A stretch of 20,173 nucleotides of DNA. Origin: a virus. The stretch spans positions 1-20,173 of the IMG/VR virus record IMGVR_UViG_3300023179_000627; one strand, written 5' to 3'. The position numbers and the translations under genes were made by a program. A model generated the notes under the pieces. It ran no database searches. It had not been told where the DNA came from and saw nothing but the letters and a program-made list of their open reading frames with translations. Shown here piece after piece: positions 4,514-12,811 of this stretch. Positions within the stretch are counted from its first letter, which is position 1, and each line of letters begins with the position of its first letter.

Positions 4514-5272
4514 TTATACAACAGTTCCGCAAATTCCAAGAACGCTATATGTATTCCCTGCACCAATTGTTCTAGGAGTAGATGATACAGTTTGAGGTAA
4601 TGTTCCTGAACCTGTTTGATAGTTAGTAGGAACTCCATTCAATGAATCTTGAATCTGACCTCTTTGTCCGCTGCTTGCTCTAGTAGTTTGTATAACAGTT
4701 ACATAATATGCATCGCCTGTAAATAATCCAACTGAAGCAGTTGCACCATTTGTACTTAATGTTGTAGATAAAACATATCCAGAACCAGCTGGAGAAGCAA
4801 CATAAAGCGACATAGATCCTGTATTACCCGCATCTAATTGGAATGTCATACCAACATTAACATTCAAACGTGTAGTTGTAGTTGTAGTAGTGCTAGGAGC
4901 TACAGTTGTGGTTGTAGTAGTTGTTCCTGAAATAGTAGTAGATGTAGTGGTAGTTGTTAATCTAGTAGTAGATGTTGTAGTAGTAGTTGGACCTGATGAA
5001 GTAGTTGTGGTGGTTGTTGTTGGACCTACTAAAGTAGTTGTAGTAGTTGTAGTAGGAGTTATAATATTTAAATTTATAGAATTTGTACAAGTCCCTGTAG
5101 AAGCAACTTTAATATAAGTTGCAGCATCTGGTACACTACTTAATGTATACCCTGAAACTAATGCAGATTTAGCAACACCACTTACTAATGGGGTAACTAA
5201 ATCTACACTTGAAAATAAATTAAATGGACCAGTATCTGCTCCAGGAGATGTTAGTGTTACTAAAACAACCAT
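4514..5272 (-). CDS. Two-domain structural protein with threonine-rich linker
   Basis: A 252-residue protein with three parts. Residues 1-70 are a small beta-rich domain starting MVVLVTLTSPGADTGPFNLF and ending in STGTCTNSINLNI. Residues 72-134 are almost all threonine, in blocks of 5-7 Thr broken by GP, SSGP, RL, ISG and VAPS. Residues 136-252 form a Gly/Ser/Thr-rich beta-type domain. I recall proteins with the same N-terminal module and poly-Thr linkers from Bacteroidota phages, probably virion surface components. The linker may be extended or O-glycosylated. It has no signal peptide. It ends just before a terminator and begins 25 bases after a small unknown gene. Attachment to head or tail and any receptor role are inference; no function is assigned with confidence. 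Confidence 0.7.
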   Translation of the reverse strand: MVVLVTLTSPGADTGPFNLFSSVDLVTPLVSGVAKSALVSGYTLSSVPDAATYIKVASTGTCTNSINLNIITPTTTTTTTLVGPTTTTTTTSSGPTTTTTSTTRLTTTTTSTTISGTTTTTTTVAPSTTTTTTTRLNVNVGMTFQLDAGNTGSMSLYVASPAGSGYVLSTTLSTNGATASVGLFTGDAYYVTVIQTTRASSGQRGQIQDSLNGVPTNYQTGSGTLPQTVSSTPRTIGAGNTYSVLGICGTVV

Positions 5273-7513: not shown

Positions 7514-8245
7514 TTACTCATTTGTTTTAATTCTGTATGCAGCATTTTGAACAGCGGACTGATTCTCGATGTACATAGCTAAGTTTTCTACGGTTAAATC
7601 TAAAAGCTCATCTTCAAGATAAGTTTCTAATTCACAATCTACATTTGTAGAAGCAGTACCGTCAAACTTAATATAACCAACTTTATCTATATAAACTGGG
7701 TATCTCATATAAGAGATGTAGATTTTAGTTGGGGTAAAAGTTCCATCTGTAAAAATGGAGATTTCATCAGATGATAAGAAATTAAATGTTTCTTGATATT
7801 CAAATGATGGTTTGTAGTGATCGTTGTTTAACAATAAAGACAAATCTCCATGCTTGGCAAGATCTTTGTTAATCCAAATTTTTCTATTTGTACAAGGTAG
7901 TTTATCTGCAATCACATAACTATCTACATAGAACATGTACTTAGGTGATAATGCATAAATATTAGCTTTCCATTGATTAAGTTGTGCATTCTTCAAAGTT
8001 AATGGTAACATACCATCATTGTATGCTACCACCAAACTTTGTAAATCTTCATATCTTTTTTTGAAAGCATCTAATCCTAATCCTGAAGTAGTGCTTTGTC
8101 CATCAACCTTTTGTTTTATTAATTTGATCTGAGCCTCATTAAGAGCTAAGATCTTATCTTCTAATGGTATTTGTTGGTGGGCATTAGTAGATAGCTTATT
8201 TAGTCTCTGATCAATCTTATACAATAAACTATCTACTGATATCAT
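7514..8245 (-). CDS. Head-tail connector/adaptor-type structural protein (crAss-like)
   Basis: A 243-residue protein that starts MISVDSLLYKIDQRLNKLST, with an N-terminal helical part (to about 75) containing LEDKILALNEAQIKLIKQK, a beta-rich centre (YMFYVDSYVIAD, KIWINKD, KIYISYMRYPVYIDKVGYI) and a helical end (ELETYLEDELLDLTVENLAMYI). This helical-beta-helical pattern, together with the place two genes after the capsid gene, resembles connector or adaptor proteins that join portal and tail. I recognise the N-terminus as common in crAss-like phages. It overlaps the upstream gene by four bases (ATGA), the classical coupling arrangement. Function is inferred from position and pattern; no metal or nucleotide site is visible. 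Confidence 0.7.
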   Translation of the reverse strand: MISVDSLLYKIDQRLNKLSTNAHQQIPLEDKILALNEAQIKLIKQKVDGQSTTSGLGLDAFKKRYEDLQSLVVAYNDGMLPLTLKNAQLNQWKANIYALSPKYMFYVDSYVIADKLPCTNRKIWINKDLAKHGDLSLLLNNDHYKPSFEYQETFNFLSSDEISIFTDGTFTPTKIYISYMRYPVYIDKVGYIKFDGTASTNVDCELETYLEDELLDLTVENLAMYIENQSAVQNAAYRIKTNE

Positions 8246-9210
8246 ATTGAAGCTAGTTTTTTACCTTTTAATTTCTGTTCTAATGTAATAAGCTCATCTT
8301 GATTATCATCATTAGCTAAAAATTTAACTAATTCATCCTCATCAATTGCAACTTCTAGTTCACCCATGTAAATCTTACCGTTTCCTTTCATACGATAGAT
8401 GGAGTGTCCTAATGCTTGTTTTACTAAATCTTTAATATGAAGTAAACTTTCCTTCATGTCAGCAAAACGATTAAACACCTCAACTGGATTCAATCCTTGG
8501 TATTTACCATCTTTAAGTTCAGTTTGTTTCAACATGTTATCAACAAGGTTGTAAACAACTTCTTCTTTAGTATCATCAACTACAGGTAAGCCTAATAAAC
8601 GAGCAACTTTCTTCTTCTTATCAGGAGTCATTGCATCAAACTTAATGATTGCTTTGTTGATTAATTGTTTTTTCTTATAAACAACAGCATTTTCAATTTC
8701 ATCATCTACAACATAAAACTGTGTATCTGCAGCAAATTCACCACGTTCCCAAGCTTGATATGAACTAGCAATAGTTGGATGAACTCTCAACCATGAAAAA
8801 GCTAATTCTTGTAAAGTGTTATTGAAATCAAAATAATTATCACCATCTAATAACTTAACTGGTTGTACATGCATTTCATCATTTGTAGAACTTGACAAAC
8901 CATAGTTCCAAAACTTAGAACGAGGACCTAAATCTACGTCTCCTAATTGAGCTTCTAATCGTGCCTTCAAATTTGTAACACGTTCAATTTCCATTTCACG
9001 TTCTGTAGGATCTTGAATTCTACGAATGTAAGCAGCATTAGGATCTAATCCTGTGCGATACTGTCCATCCATTTCTTTGTAAGGATACTTAAACACTCCT
9101 GTTCCAGGAATACGTGTTAAACCTCTTTGTGCAAGACCACCTTGCATTGTTTGTACTTGCGAGTTATTGTAATCTTTCTTAATAGTAGATATTTTTCCGA
9201 GCTTACCCAT
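8242..9210 (-). CDS. Conserved crAss-like structural protein, function unknown
   Basis: A 322-residue protein encoded next after the capsid and HNH genes, of a kind I recall from crAss-like genomes in the same place. The N-terminus (MGKLGKISTIKKDYNNSQVQ) is basic and flexible, followed by GLAQRGLTRIPGTGVFKYPY and the charged helix EREMEIERVTNLKARLEAQL (about 72-91). The C-terminal half is strongly helical and lysine/acid-rich (INKAIIKFDAMTPDKKKKVARLLGLP; EDELVKFLANDDNQDEL). No known catalytic motif is seen. The start follows the leader AACTACATC, identical to that of the gene starting at 18054. It may be a capsid-interior, cargo or connector protein. The gene is probably real and late-expressed; its role is open. 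Confidence 0.7.
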   Translation of the reverse strand: MGKLGKISTIKKDYNNSQVQTMQGGLAQRGLTRIPGTGVFKYPYKEMDGQYRTGLDPNAAYIRRIQDPTEREMEIERVTNLKARLEAQLGDVDLGPRSKFWNYGLSSSTNDEMHVQPVKLLDGDNYFDFNNTLQELAFSWLRVHPTIASSYQAWERGEFAADTQFYVVDDEIENAVVYKKKQLINKAIIKFDAMTPDKKKKVARLLGLPVVDDTKEEVVYNLVDNMLKQTELKDGKYQGLNPVEVFNRFADMKESLLHIKDLVKQALGHSIYRMKGNGKIYMGELEVAIDEDELVKFLANDDNQDELITLEQKLKGKKLASI

Positions 9211-9395
9211 GATGTAGTTTGTTTTAATTATTTGGTTTTAGCAGAGTGCTATCCATCGAAGGAATAGCGACCAGGGACACCCCAATCCAAGCACTCTGTA
9301 TTCAAGAAGAAAGCCCCTTTTAGGAGGGAGAGAGTAGAGGGGCTCTTCTTGCGCTTTCGATTGAAAGCAAAGGACTGTTGTCCTATGTATTAGAA
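9211..9395 (-). other. Highly structured intergenic RNA after capsid/HNH genes
   Basis: No gene is seen here. On the minus strand five helices follow one another. AGGAC/GTCCT (9384-9371) has a 4-base loop. GCTTTC/GAAAGC (9368-9353) has a 4-base loop. A 13-bp stem (9350-9345 plus 9344-9338 with 9318-9312 plus 9309-9304) carries a 2-base bulge. A 9-bp stem CAGAGTGCT/AGCACTCTG (9298-9290 with 9250-9242) encloses about 39 bases that can form two smaller hairpins, giving a three-way junction. No long U-tract follows any stem, so a simple terminator does not explain it. A processing, stability or attenuation element for capsid mRNA is possible. Confidence 0.6.
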
Positions 9396-9848
9396 TTATG
9401 AATTATATTTAATAACTTCTTTCACATATTCTATTCCCATGTAGGGATTATGTTCTTCTCTGTGACAATTTGAACATAGTAACATGCATTTATTTACTTC
9501 TTTTAATATTTCTTCAGGTGACTTATATTTTAAATATTGAATCTTTATTTCAAAATTTTTTTCATATCCATCTTTATGATGAAAGTCAAATGCTGAAAGA
9601 TTTTTATCATACCCACATTTTTGACATTTTCCTCCAAATAATTCTATTAATTCTAGTTTTCTTTGAATGCCTTTTAAAGTATACTTGTTTAATCCAAACT
9701 TATCTTTAAATTCTTTATGGGGTATAGAAGCTTTTTTATACTTGTGTTTATCATGGCACTTTTGATTGCAGAACTTTTTATCTTTTCTGAATCTTCTTTC
9801 TCCTTCGACATCTACCAAAGGTGTGCCACAATATAAACACTCTTTCAC
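9396..9848 (-). CDS. HNH homing endonuclease with zinc fingers
   Basis: A 150-residue HNH nuclease, probably a free-standing homing enzyme. The N-terminal zinc finger has C4, C7, C27 and C31 (CLYC, then FCNQKC). The HNH core starts at CQKCGY (C75, C78), followed by FDFHHKD (H90, H91) and NKCMLLCSNCHREEH (119-133), with the second cysteine pair at 125 and 128 and conserved N127, H129 and H133. Residues 53-70 (LNKYTLKGIQRKLELIEL) may form a DNA-binding helix pair. It starts with GTG within the capsid gene's TAG stop (TAGTG, one-base overlap), so translation is probably coupled to the capsid gene, and its own stop is TAA. It separates the capsid gene from the structured region that may originally have followed it. 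It looks AT-richer than the capsid gene, consistent with insertion. Confidence 0.88.
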   Translation of the reverse strand: MKECLYCGTPLVDVEGERRFRKDKKFCNQKCHDKHKYKKASIPHKEFKDKFGLNKYTLKGIQRKLELIELFGGKCQKCGYDKNLSAFDFHHKDGYEKNFEIKIQYLKYKSPEEILKEVNKCMLLCSNCHREEHNPYMGIEYVKEVIKYNS

Positions 9849-11401
9849 TAAAATTGTGGGATTTCTTCAATCAAGACTGTACGAGACAAATCTTCAATAA
9901 ACACATCGCAACGATCCTTCATCCAGATTTCGTATCCTGGGAATTTGTTAGCACTTGACATACCTTGAGATTTTGCAAATCCTAAGTGATGACGAGTACC
10001 ATCGATATAACCCCAAGTCATAGAAGGAGCACCCTTCATACGTACCTCACGGATGTTATTTACCATAGATCCATCAGACATTGGAGAAACGTCAAACACC
10101 ATAAATACTGGAGTTGATTTCTTGTTTTGTCCAAATTCTAAGTTAGATTGTGGTAAATCTAATTCTTTTAAGTGGATAAGTTCAACACGACCTGTCTCAC
10201 GAGTTACCATTGCATCGAATGCAAAGTTGTAAGTGATGTGTTGTCCTTCTCCTTGCATGTAACGATTACCTGAATCAGCCATGAAAGTAAGACCAGAATT
10301 CAAAGCATCGTTTTTCAAAGCTTGTTGGAACACGTCAAAACCAGCTTCGTTAGTGTACATTTTAACACGACGATCCTTAACATCCACACGACGATAGAAC
10401 AAATCACCAAATACTGAACGAATCAAGTTAGCAGTGAATTCTCCACGGTTGTATTGAACTAAGTTACCATTGTTACGCATACGGTGATAAACACCAGCAG
10501 AAGTACGCTTTAAGTTTTGCTGAGAACCATTAGTCTTAACAGTGCCTGGCTTAGACCAGATCATACGTTTAACTTTTAATTCTAACATAGACTTACGCAT
10601 CCAGAACTCAATAAACGGTTCCCACTTAACATCATTACGAGTTAATGGTAATTGGTTACGACGTTGTGGAGCATATACTAAGATGTCTAATGGCTTACCA
10701 CCAGCATCAACCATCATCTTATCATCAGCCCATTCAGTGATCTTGTGCTCATAACCATATGCAGAACCTAATGATTCAAACATAGTGATTTGCTCACCTA
10801 AACGTGGCAATCCTAATAAGTCTTGATCAAATTCACCAATAACTGCATCGATCAATTCTAATTCAATACCATTTTGTAAGAATGTACTAGAAACGAAATC
10901 TACAGTTGGATTGTCAGTTACTAAAGTGAAAGTGTACAAATAACCTGCGTTGTAAGGAACTGGATCTTTGATAACGAAGAAGCGAGGACCATACTGACGA
11001 GTACCTACTGATACTACAGAATTTTTAGAAAACTCATTAGTATCAATTACTAATTGAAATTCTTGACCATCGATACCTGGCTTTGTTAAAGATAACGTAG
11101 TAGCAGGGATTTCGATAGTTTTAGGGAACTTGTAAGGAACTGCGATTTGCCACTTCCAAGCATCACTGTTATTGTCAATATAGTAAGGTGTTGACTTGTT
11201 GATCATGTCCAAAAAGTCATTACTATACAATGAGCTTTGTGTATACAGAGAGATAATTTTCTTATCATAATCTGCAGGCTCAGTTGAGTGGAAGCTTTCC
11301 AAGTGGTTTGAATCTGTTAACTTACCAACCGCACGTTTGTCCATAGACGCAACGCGGGCATAAGTAAAGCCAGTTAAACCTGGAATTGTTTGAATTGCCA
11401 T
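9848..11401 (-). CDS. Major capsid protein, HK97-fold crAss type
   Basis: A 517-residue main shell protein and the firmest marker of the phage group. Recognisable crAss-like capsid segments include TDSNHLESFHSTEPADYDKK, IISLYTQSSLYSN, TKPGIDGQEFQL, FDQDLLGLPRLGEQITMFES and a long C-terminal block with GEGQHITYNF, DLPQSNLEFGQNKKSTP and PSMTWGYIDGTRHHLGFAKS. The fold is HK97-like in the family; the sequence itself shows only the family signature. It follows the scaffold-like gene after 37 bases, with an A-rich leader (AAACAAAAAAACAA) before ATG, as in highly translated Bacteroidota genes. Codon use seems richer in G+C than in small neighbours. It is the only gene here ending in TAG, followed at once by an in-frame TGA. 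Confidence 0.96.
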   Translation of the reverse strand: MAIQTIPGLTGFTYARVASMDKRAVGKLTDSNHLESFHSTEPADYDKKIISLYTQSSLYSNDFLDMINKSTPYYIDNNSDAWKWQIAVPYKFPKTIEIPATTLSLTKPGIDGQEFQLVIDTNEFSKNSVVSVGTRQYGPRFFVIKDPVPYNAGYLYTFTLVTDNPTVDFVSSTFLQNGIELELIDAVIGEFDQDLLGLPRLGEQITMFESLGSAYGYEHKITEWADDKMMVDAGGKPLDILVYAPQRRNQLPLTRNDVKWEPFIEFWMRKSMLELKVKRMIWSKPGTVKTNGSQQNLKRTSAGVYHRMRNNGNLVQYNRGEFTANLIRSVFGDLFYRRVDVKDRRVKMYTNEAGFDVFQQALKNDALNSGLTFMADSGNRYMQGEGQHITYNFAFDAMVTRETGRVELIHLKELDLPQSNLEFGQNKKSTPVFMVFDVSPMSDGSMVNNIREVRMKGAPSMTWGYIDGTRHHLGFAKSQGMSSANKFPGYEIWMKDRCDVFIEDLSRTVLIEEIPQF

Positions 11402-12671: not shown

Positions 12672-12811
12672 ACGTAGTTTGTTTTTGAATTGGTTTTTCG
12701 TTATAAAAGTATATTATGTTAATTTAATAACAAAGAGTAAATTGCCTATAGAGTTGAATATTCTACATAATATAGCATTAATAGAAATTACTCTAATTAA
12801 AATAATTAGAA
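12672..12811 (-). promoter_or_regulatory. AT-rich gap before scaffold/capsid genes, possible promoter
   Basis: No gene is seen. A perfect 8-bp inverted repeat, TCTAATTA/TAATTAGA with a 3-base loop (12792-12799 and 12803-12810), directly follows the portal stop but has no U-tract, so termination would be weak. Further on, the minus strand reads TTACTCTTTG near 12739-12730, close to the TAnnTTTG box but with a 3-base spacer, and CTATAG lies at 12746-12751. A promoter for the scaffold-capsid genes would make sense here but is unproven. Confidence 0.3.

Follow-up and report, generated by a model that had tools for sequence, protein, structure and literature searches.

A conserved structured RNA between the major capsid protein gene and gene g of crAss-like phages: a possible 3′ boundary of the capsid message

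The Locus and Its Genes

The window analyzed here is a single stretch of 20,173 nt, record IMGVR_UViG_3300023179_000627 of IMG/VR, and is a fragment of a crAss-like phage genome. All of the genes considered lie on its minus strand, and the RNA that is the subject of this report therefore reads from 9395 to 9211. In transcript-sense order, the genes and the RNA are as follows.

15394-12812, minus strand: portal gene, the first in this order
12671-11439, minus strand: p410, a 410-aa gene between the portal gene and the major capsid protein gene
9848..11401, minus strand: major capsid protein gene (MCP; PF23898 Crass_capsid, 7.7e-28; phrog_11589, major head protein), upstream of the RNA
9396..9848, minus strand: HNH endonuclease gene (phrog_2255, 3.2e-23), inserted between MCP and the RNA and outside the conserved unit
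9395-9211, minus strand: RNA stretch, between the HNH gene and gene g
8242..9210, minus strand: gene g, 322 aa, function not assigned, directly downstream of the RNA and adjoining it in relatives as well

The product of gene g matched nothing in Pfam or PHROG, and its predicted structure (mean pLDDT 63.9) had no PDB match at E 0.001, the best sequence match being at E 0.08. A comparison of p410 with PDB sequences likewise returned 0 matches. We assume from the gene order that MCP and g are co-transcribed.

Helices of the RNA in the Window

A preliminary description of this DNA had proposed that a dense cluster of five helices, comprising two hairpins with 4-base loops, a 13-bp stem with a bulge, and a 9-bp stem around a possible three-way junction, might be a novel structured RNA. 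The packing of helices is well borne out by the fold energy of the minus strand (z -4.32), which none of 200 dinucleotide shuffles equaled; on the plus strand, z was -3.17 and 1 of 200 shuffles was equally good. Both small hairpins and the 9-bp stem were found as described. The bulged stem is also present, with 8 + 6 bp and a 2-nt bulge in place of the 13 bp proposed, and the helices number six and not five. The features of the stretch are given below.

9371..9384, minus strand: P1a, a variable upstream hairpin, AGGAC-AACA-GTCCT (fold and terminator scan)
9353..9368, minus strand: P1b, a variable upstream hairpin, GCTTTC-AATC-GAAAGC (fold)
9303..9351, minus strand: P2, a long hairpin whose purine-rich base is conserved and whose G+C-rich top varies (fold; helices 1 and 2 of alignment A2)
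9241..9299, minus strand: three-way junction of P3, P3a with a bulged G, and P3b with a UUCGAU hexaloop (model R2 and covariation)
9298-9290 paired with 9250-9242, minus strand: P3, 9 bp (fold)
9287-9269, minus strand: P3a, inside P3
9263-9252, minus strand: P3b, inside P3
9211..9238, minus strand: A-rich leader of gene g, AAACCAA...ACTACATC, beyond the conserved fold (sequence)

Occurrence of the RNA in Relatives

Searches with g and MCP yielded 160 loci in IMG/VR (the best 80 matches of each), and two further searches for relatives, with the best 80 matches of each considered, gave another 131. Both the end of MCP and the start of g are present in 272 of these 291 loci, which provide 175 distinct spacers with a median length of 184 nt. 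Model R2 finds the junction in 78/81, 77/80, 49/51, and 80/80 loci of four census sets, which share contigs and include training sequences, with scores of about 25 to 78 bits; the window's own junction, itself among the training sequences of R2, scores 62.2 bits (E 7.8e-13). The RNA core is thus present in nearly all relatives examined. The loci missed by R2 are L066, L070, and L071 in the set of 81, L410, L411, and L465 in the set of 80, and L492 and L537 in the set of 51. In L070, L411, and L537, the sequence starts at or just before gene g, and in L465 the end of an HNH gene is present with little more upstream. L071 and L492 belong to a single contig, in which a diverged junction is visible (29.7 bits with the long model, R1). 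L066 and L410 are also one contig, and this one lacks the junction.

The position of the RNA was equally consistent in whole phage records, in which the best R1 match fell at the spacer between MCP and g in 20 of 20. Sixteen of these matches were strong (54.6 bits or more) and four were weak (23.5-31.4 bits in G006, G007, G018, and G019), G019 being the L066 contig without a junction. Secondary R1 matches had E values of 0.003 or worse, several of them at the same place on the opposite strand, and no convincing second copy of the RNA was found in the 20 records. A pattern scan performed independently returned 115 viral stretches; among the 80 examined, 59 match R1 at 57.6 bits or more, and these follow MCP in 56 cases (the three exceptions are contigs that start too late) and precede g in 58 (the one exception is a contig end). 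The same pattern gave at least 116 matches in bacterial genomes, the best among 80 examined reaching 16.2 bits at E 0.36. The cultured relatives Lbo-JY46, Fpv3, phi14:2, and crAss001 produced only weak matches, in two of the four (E up to 5, best 0.72). A search of viral contigs with an exact 20-mer of P2 gave 0 matches.

Conserved Core and Covariation

The core shared by relatives consists of the P2 hairpin and the three-way junction, four helices in all, and the P1 hairpins vary in sequence and number or are missing. The junction spans about 59 nt. Its P3 helix has 7 bp or more with an almost invariant CAGA/UCUG, P3a has up to 11 bp with the bulged G, and P3b has 3-5 bp closed by a UUYRNU hexaloop, which reads UUCGAU in 29 of 51 distinct junctions. 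Conserved bases sit in a helix end, a bulge, and a loop, and the strands of the junction are variable.

Covariation was assessed on alignments of the spacers. The first, A1, has 58 rows, consisting of the window and 57 of 59 non-redundant spacers no longer than 225 nt (out of 113 distinct ones), with L063 and L066 omitted. Alignment A2 further omits the divergent L053, L055, L072, and L106 and has 54 rows. All of the omitted rows except L066 were later found by R2. In A2, 18 of 23 pairs show changes on both sides, and 94.6% of cells are paired, where shuffles reach 79.7% and slid controls 38.6-56.9%; the basal pair of P2, for example, is G-C in 37 and A-U in 12 of the 54 sequences. Alignment A4 contains the 51 distinct junctions. 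The preliminary description would have been refuted by stems without compensatory changes in aligned relatives; A2 and A4 instead show massive compensatory change, with both sides altered at 19 of 22 pairs in A4. Cells with both-side changes number 247 relative to 73.8 +/- 8.9 in shuffles, and the covariation score is 0.609 versus 0.200, with none of 500 shuffles as high. The weak pairs of A4 are the two outer pairs of lower P3a, unpaired in 16/51 and 19/51, and the outermost pair of P3b (16/51). On a tree of gene g, which is independent of the RNA, the pairs require at least 150 exchanges of Watson-Crick type, a count made without a null model.

The strand under selection can be read from the cells that are not Watson-Crick pairs. 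G-U cells outnumber A-C cells by 89 to 15 in A4 and by 105 to 26 in A2, and therefore selection acts on the RNA in mRNA sense. P2 and the three-way junction are kept at this single spacer by selection on RNA structure in that sense, in nearly all of the relatives examined. Three other candidates for the spacer were considered and rejected: a protein-coding spacer, as spacer lengths vary freely; a palindrome acting at the DNA level, as G-U lies far above A-C; and a ribozyme core, as the junction strands are variable.

The HNH Endonuclease Gene

The preliminary description had also raised the possibility of a recognition element linked to the endonuclease, in which case the RNA would be a binding or homing site tied to the HNH gene. 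HNH genes do recur on both sides of the RNA. However, two HNH queries found matches in only 15 of the 175 distinct spacers of relatives and none in the other 160, and the RNA is in nearly all. The HNH genes are moreover of two types, inserted at the end of MCP and at the start of g and not in the RNA. We consider this proposal barely credible and have abandoned it.

The HNH protein of the window is small (150 aa) and matches phrog_2255 and other phage HNH families, with no Pfam match. Its gene is inserted at the last codons of MCP, and its GTG start overlaps the new MCP stop. In L003, L004, L005, and L026, which have no HNH gene here, the MCP stop runs straight into the RNA. The insertion junctions can be compared directly: L003 has CACAATTCTAAT, and the window has CACAATTTTAGTG in front of the HNH gene and ATTCTAATACATAGG behind it, where the stretch looks like the old MCP end. 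The HNH gene therefore most likely entered between MCP and an RNA that is older than the insertion.

Several further observations concern HNH genes at this position. An HNH gene of another subtype lies between the RNA and g in L023, L042, L075, L101, L113, L115, L124, L126, L137, and L147, each beginning within a duplicate of the sequence around the g start, CTACATATGG. In the spacers of L140, L045, and L067, a short piece resembling ACTACATATGG lies before g with a second AAACCAA leader after it, as if an HNH gene had been lost there and had left a scar. The cultured Flavobacterium phage Fpv3 likewise has an annotated HNH endonuclease (L174 3477-4259) after its gene for the major head protein. 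Positions 9447-9677 of the window, which are part of the HNH gene, share 74% DNA identity with a stretch of the uncultured 636-kb phage LR756504.

Inserted Genes and the Neighbor to Which the RNA Belongs

Inserts offer a means to ask which neighbor the RNA accompanies. Among the 175 distinct spacers, 21 hold a tRNA gene (20 Met and 1 Thr) and 15 an HNH gene, with 4 holding both. The order is MCP-RNA-insert in 31 of the 31 insert-bearing spacers with a junction, although these are not 31 independent events because the insertions are related by descent and target site; the 32nd, L066, has no junction. Since the inserts lie after the RNA, it is from g that the RNA becomes separated, and it remains beside MCP. 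The one exception seen is the window, whose HNH insert lies on the MCP side and separates MCP from the RNA.

This arrangement bears on translational control of g, by which a capsid or scaffold protein, or another ligand, would bind the junction and turn g on or off in an autogenous manner. The distance from the end of the junction to the ATG is 26-33 nt in 116 of the 137 insert-free spacers with a located end, and the invariant junction bases suggest a specific binder. With tRNA or HNH inserts present, however, the RNA is left distant from g in all 31 junction-bearing spacers of relatives, and the folds that were looked at, unsystematically, show no evident structure over the start codon. We regard such control as unlikely, though still deserving of serious attention.

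The tRNA inserts raise a different question. Those between the RNA and g mostly nearly abut the junction (L058 1201-1275 is an example), and tRNA-Met starts 4-5 nt past the junction in 9 of 9 loci compared. In L066, a tRNA-Met at 4895-4968 stands where the junction would be, the only such case seen. One reading of these observations is tRNA mimicry. The junction would imitate the half of a tRNA formed by the acceptor stem and the T arm, and cleavage by RNase P or RNase Z would yield two products, an MCP message with P2 as its cap and a g message whose leader is clean. The acceptor/T stack of a tRNA is 12 bp long. P3 and P3b together come near this length, with 10-13 bp in 44 of 51 junctions (in five of the remaining 7, the loop had been wrongly anchored by the script) and 0-2 nt between the two helices in 46 of 51, and the UUCGAU loop resembles a T-loop. 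Hairpins composed of an acceptor stem and a T arm are known model substrates of RNase P (PMC11143913). Against the resemblance, the loop has 6 nt and not 7, and its fifth base is A in 37/51 and another base in 14/51. Neither Rfam nor ARAGORN reports a tRNA or tmRNA match at the site (ARAGORN found 0 in the window), and no RCCA was seen by eye directly after the helix. The replacement in L066 is a single contig, and the junction is kept in 20 of the 21 spacers that already hold a tRNA, which means that the tRNA and the junction are not simply redundant. Mimicry of this kind is rather unlikely in our estimation. A bolder version is more doubtful still. In it, a viral tRNA mimic would serve as message punctuation cut by the host's tRNA-maturation enzymes, with P2 capping the freed capsid 3′ end, as a bacterial-virus counterpart of MALAT1/mascRNA for which a real tRNA substitutes in one lineage.

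Terminator, Promoter, and Leader Signals

A location between genes, the strong P2 hairpin, and three loose terminator-like matches invite a comparison with terminators. The preliminary description had stated that no U-tract follows any stem. Relatives largely agree, as T-runs (5 T in 7) come after the junction at 1 of 137 located ends and after P2 at 0 of 101 (143 insert-free distinct spacers), but a looser scan does list the three matches within the stretch at 9287-9269, 9384-9371, and 9329-9314, with broken tails such as GCTATTCCTT. That scan returned 11 terminator-like matches in 10.5 kb where 4.9 are expected. A G+C-rich hairpin followed directly by a T-run, as in an intrinsic terminator, is not the pattern seen here, and terminator-like hairpins with T-rich tails lie elsewhere in the window, for example at 4473-4449 and 6341-6321. 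As for the attenuator that the preliminary description had also suggested, no T-run was found. An unusual terminator for the phage or host RNA polymerase would have to work with T-runs this rare, and the promoter-like core of the p410 spacer, described below, is missing before g. We therefore judge a terminator highly improbable.

The leader before gene g is widespread: the motif A[AT]ACCA[AT] lies no more than 60 nt upstream of g in 165 of 175 spacers. The leader is of the type AAACCAA...ACTACAT, and a leader of the same type precedes p410 in 108 of 115 loci. The spacer upstream of p410 (12672-12811, minus strand) is conserved in relatives and reads TTAATGCTATATTA ... CTCTTTG ... TATACTTTTACA ... 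AAACCAA ... ACTACAT. Across 60 sequences, the 125 nt that precede p410 are strongly conserved without a common fold, and the conserved block looks like a promoter-like element followed by a leader. Of these 60 sequences, 55 have the promoter-like core, TTAATGCTATA, before p410; none of the 175 MCP-g spacers has it. The region has no more sigma-70-like sites than chance would give (41 found, 47 expected), and one such site, matching at 9 of 12 positions, lies at 9255-9227.

A stable small RNA could also be cut from the MCP transcript and act in trans or in the particle. The element is compact, conserved, and without a convincing second copy, as might suit such a product. No promoter of its own was identified among the chance-level sigma-70-like sites, however, and the placed matches are all in mRNA sense beside MCP or g. 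We find this possibility quite improbable.

A Proposed Boundary and Decay Barrier of the Capsid Message

We tentatively favor a cis-acting RNA, possibly tRNA-like and processed by a nuclease, that forms the 3′-end boundary of the MCP message and a barrier to its decay; to this reading we give somewhat less than an even chance. Processing or a decay barrier for the capsid message had been among the roles suggested in the preliminary description, and it is the best-fitting of them, on an argument from position. P2 and the junction would together form a module that ends the MCP mRNA at its 3′ side. Transcription would continue from MCP into the g region, and a cut would then fall next to the junction, where the RNA is unstructured; in some phages, maturation of the adjoining tRNA would make this cut. 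The junction and P2 would then stall 3′-to-5′ exonucleases, such that the MCP message outlives the g message, and g would be translated from its own A-rich leader. The CAGA/UCUG helix end, the bulged G, and the UUYRNU loop are probably recognized by a protein or nuclease; several invariant junction nucleotides are not needed by a plain barrier and hint at specific recognition.

Support for the boundary reading comes from the covariation, the mRNA-sense bias, the position between MCP and g, the placement of inserts after the RNA, the near absence of T-runs, the tRNA-Met genes that start just past the junction, and the lack of the promoter-like core before g. Counted against it are the invariant junction nucleotides, the HNH gene that separates MCP from the RNA in the window, the relatedness of the insertions, the loose terminator-like matches, and the sigma-70-like site at 9255-9227.

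The RNA matters in several respects. It is a family tied to the capsid gene in a common crAss-like group that is known here from metagenome contigs alone, and it provides a sharp genomic marker for this group. If the RNA does set how abundant or how long-lived the capsid mRNA is, it would reveal how these phages obtain more capsid than neighboring proteins from one gene block.

Comparison with Known Systems

No family of Rfam 15 matches the window at the gathering score, and scans of the site at permissive thresholds, run on the window and on L130, yielded nothing beyond chance-like, unrelated weak matches. Rfam searches of 12 further relatives returned no family except the separate tRNA of L107, and no ribozyme family reached the gathering score in the window or these 12. 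A literature search of mostly open full texts found no description of such an RNA among the titles and abstract openings listed; the main text of PMC8040213, a screen for RNAs in microbiomes, does not contain "crAss" or "capsid". By these searches the RNA is apparently a new family, so that the novel structured RNA first proposed holds up as structured, unlike a terminator, and apparently undescribed. Its way of working is likely a variant of known intercistronic RNA elements.

Four known systems invite comparison. The HEARO/omega RNAs of IscB-type HNH systems are also structured RNAs that adjoin an HNH gene. Here, by contrast, there is neither an Rfam match nor linkage to an IscB-like HNH/RuvC protein; the window's 150-aa HNH protein matches nothing other than phage HNH families, and in the majority of loci with the RNA the site gave no HNH match. 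The HDV-like theta ribozymes of gut phages (PMC10879173) resemble our RNA in being structured and, in some genomes, beside a phage tRNA. The RNA described here differs from them in having no Rfam ribozyme match and in having variable junction strands, with conserved bases in a helix end, a bulge, and a loop. MALAT1/mascRNA and RNase P substrates such as phage C4 antisense RNA share with it a possible acceptor/T-arm-like stack right after a stem that might cap a new 3′ end. In contrast to these modules, the phage RNA has a 6-nt loop, no CCA at the helix, and no tRNA family match, and it belongs to the mRNA of a bacterial virus, in which processing is putative. Finally, the hairpins of the puf operon (Rhodobacter type) act as decay barriers (PMC7509114) and, like the RNA described here, are structured RNA between genes that are probably co-transcribed. 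The puf-type hairpins set segmental mRNA stability, and the same is proposed by inference for the phage RNA. What distinguishes the phage RNA from the puf hairpins is a conserved three-way junction, with its loop and invariant bases, maintained across many phages.
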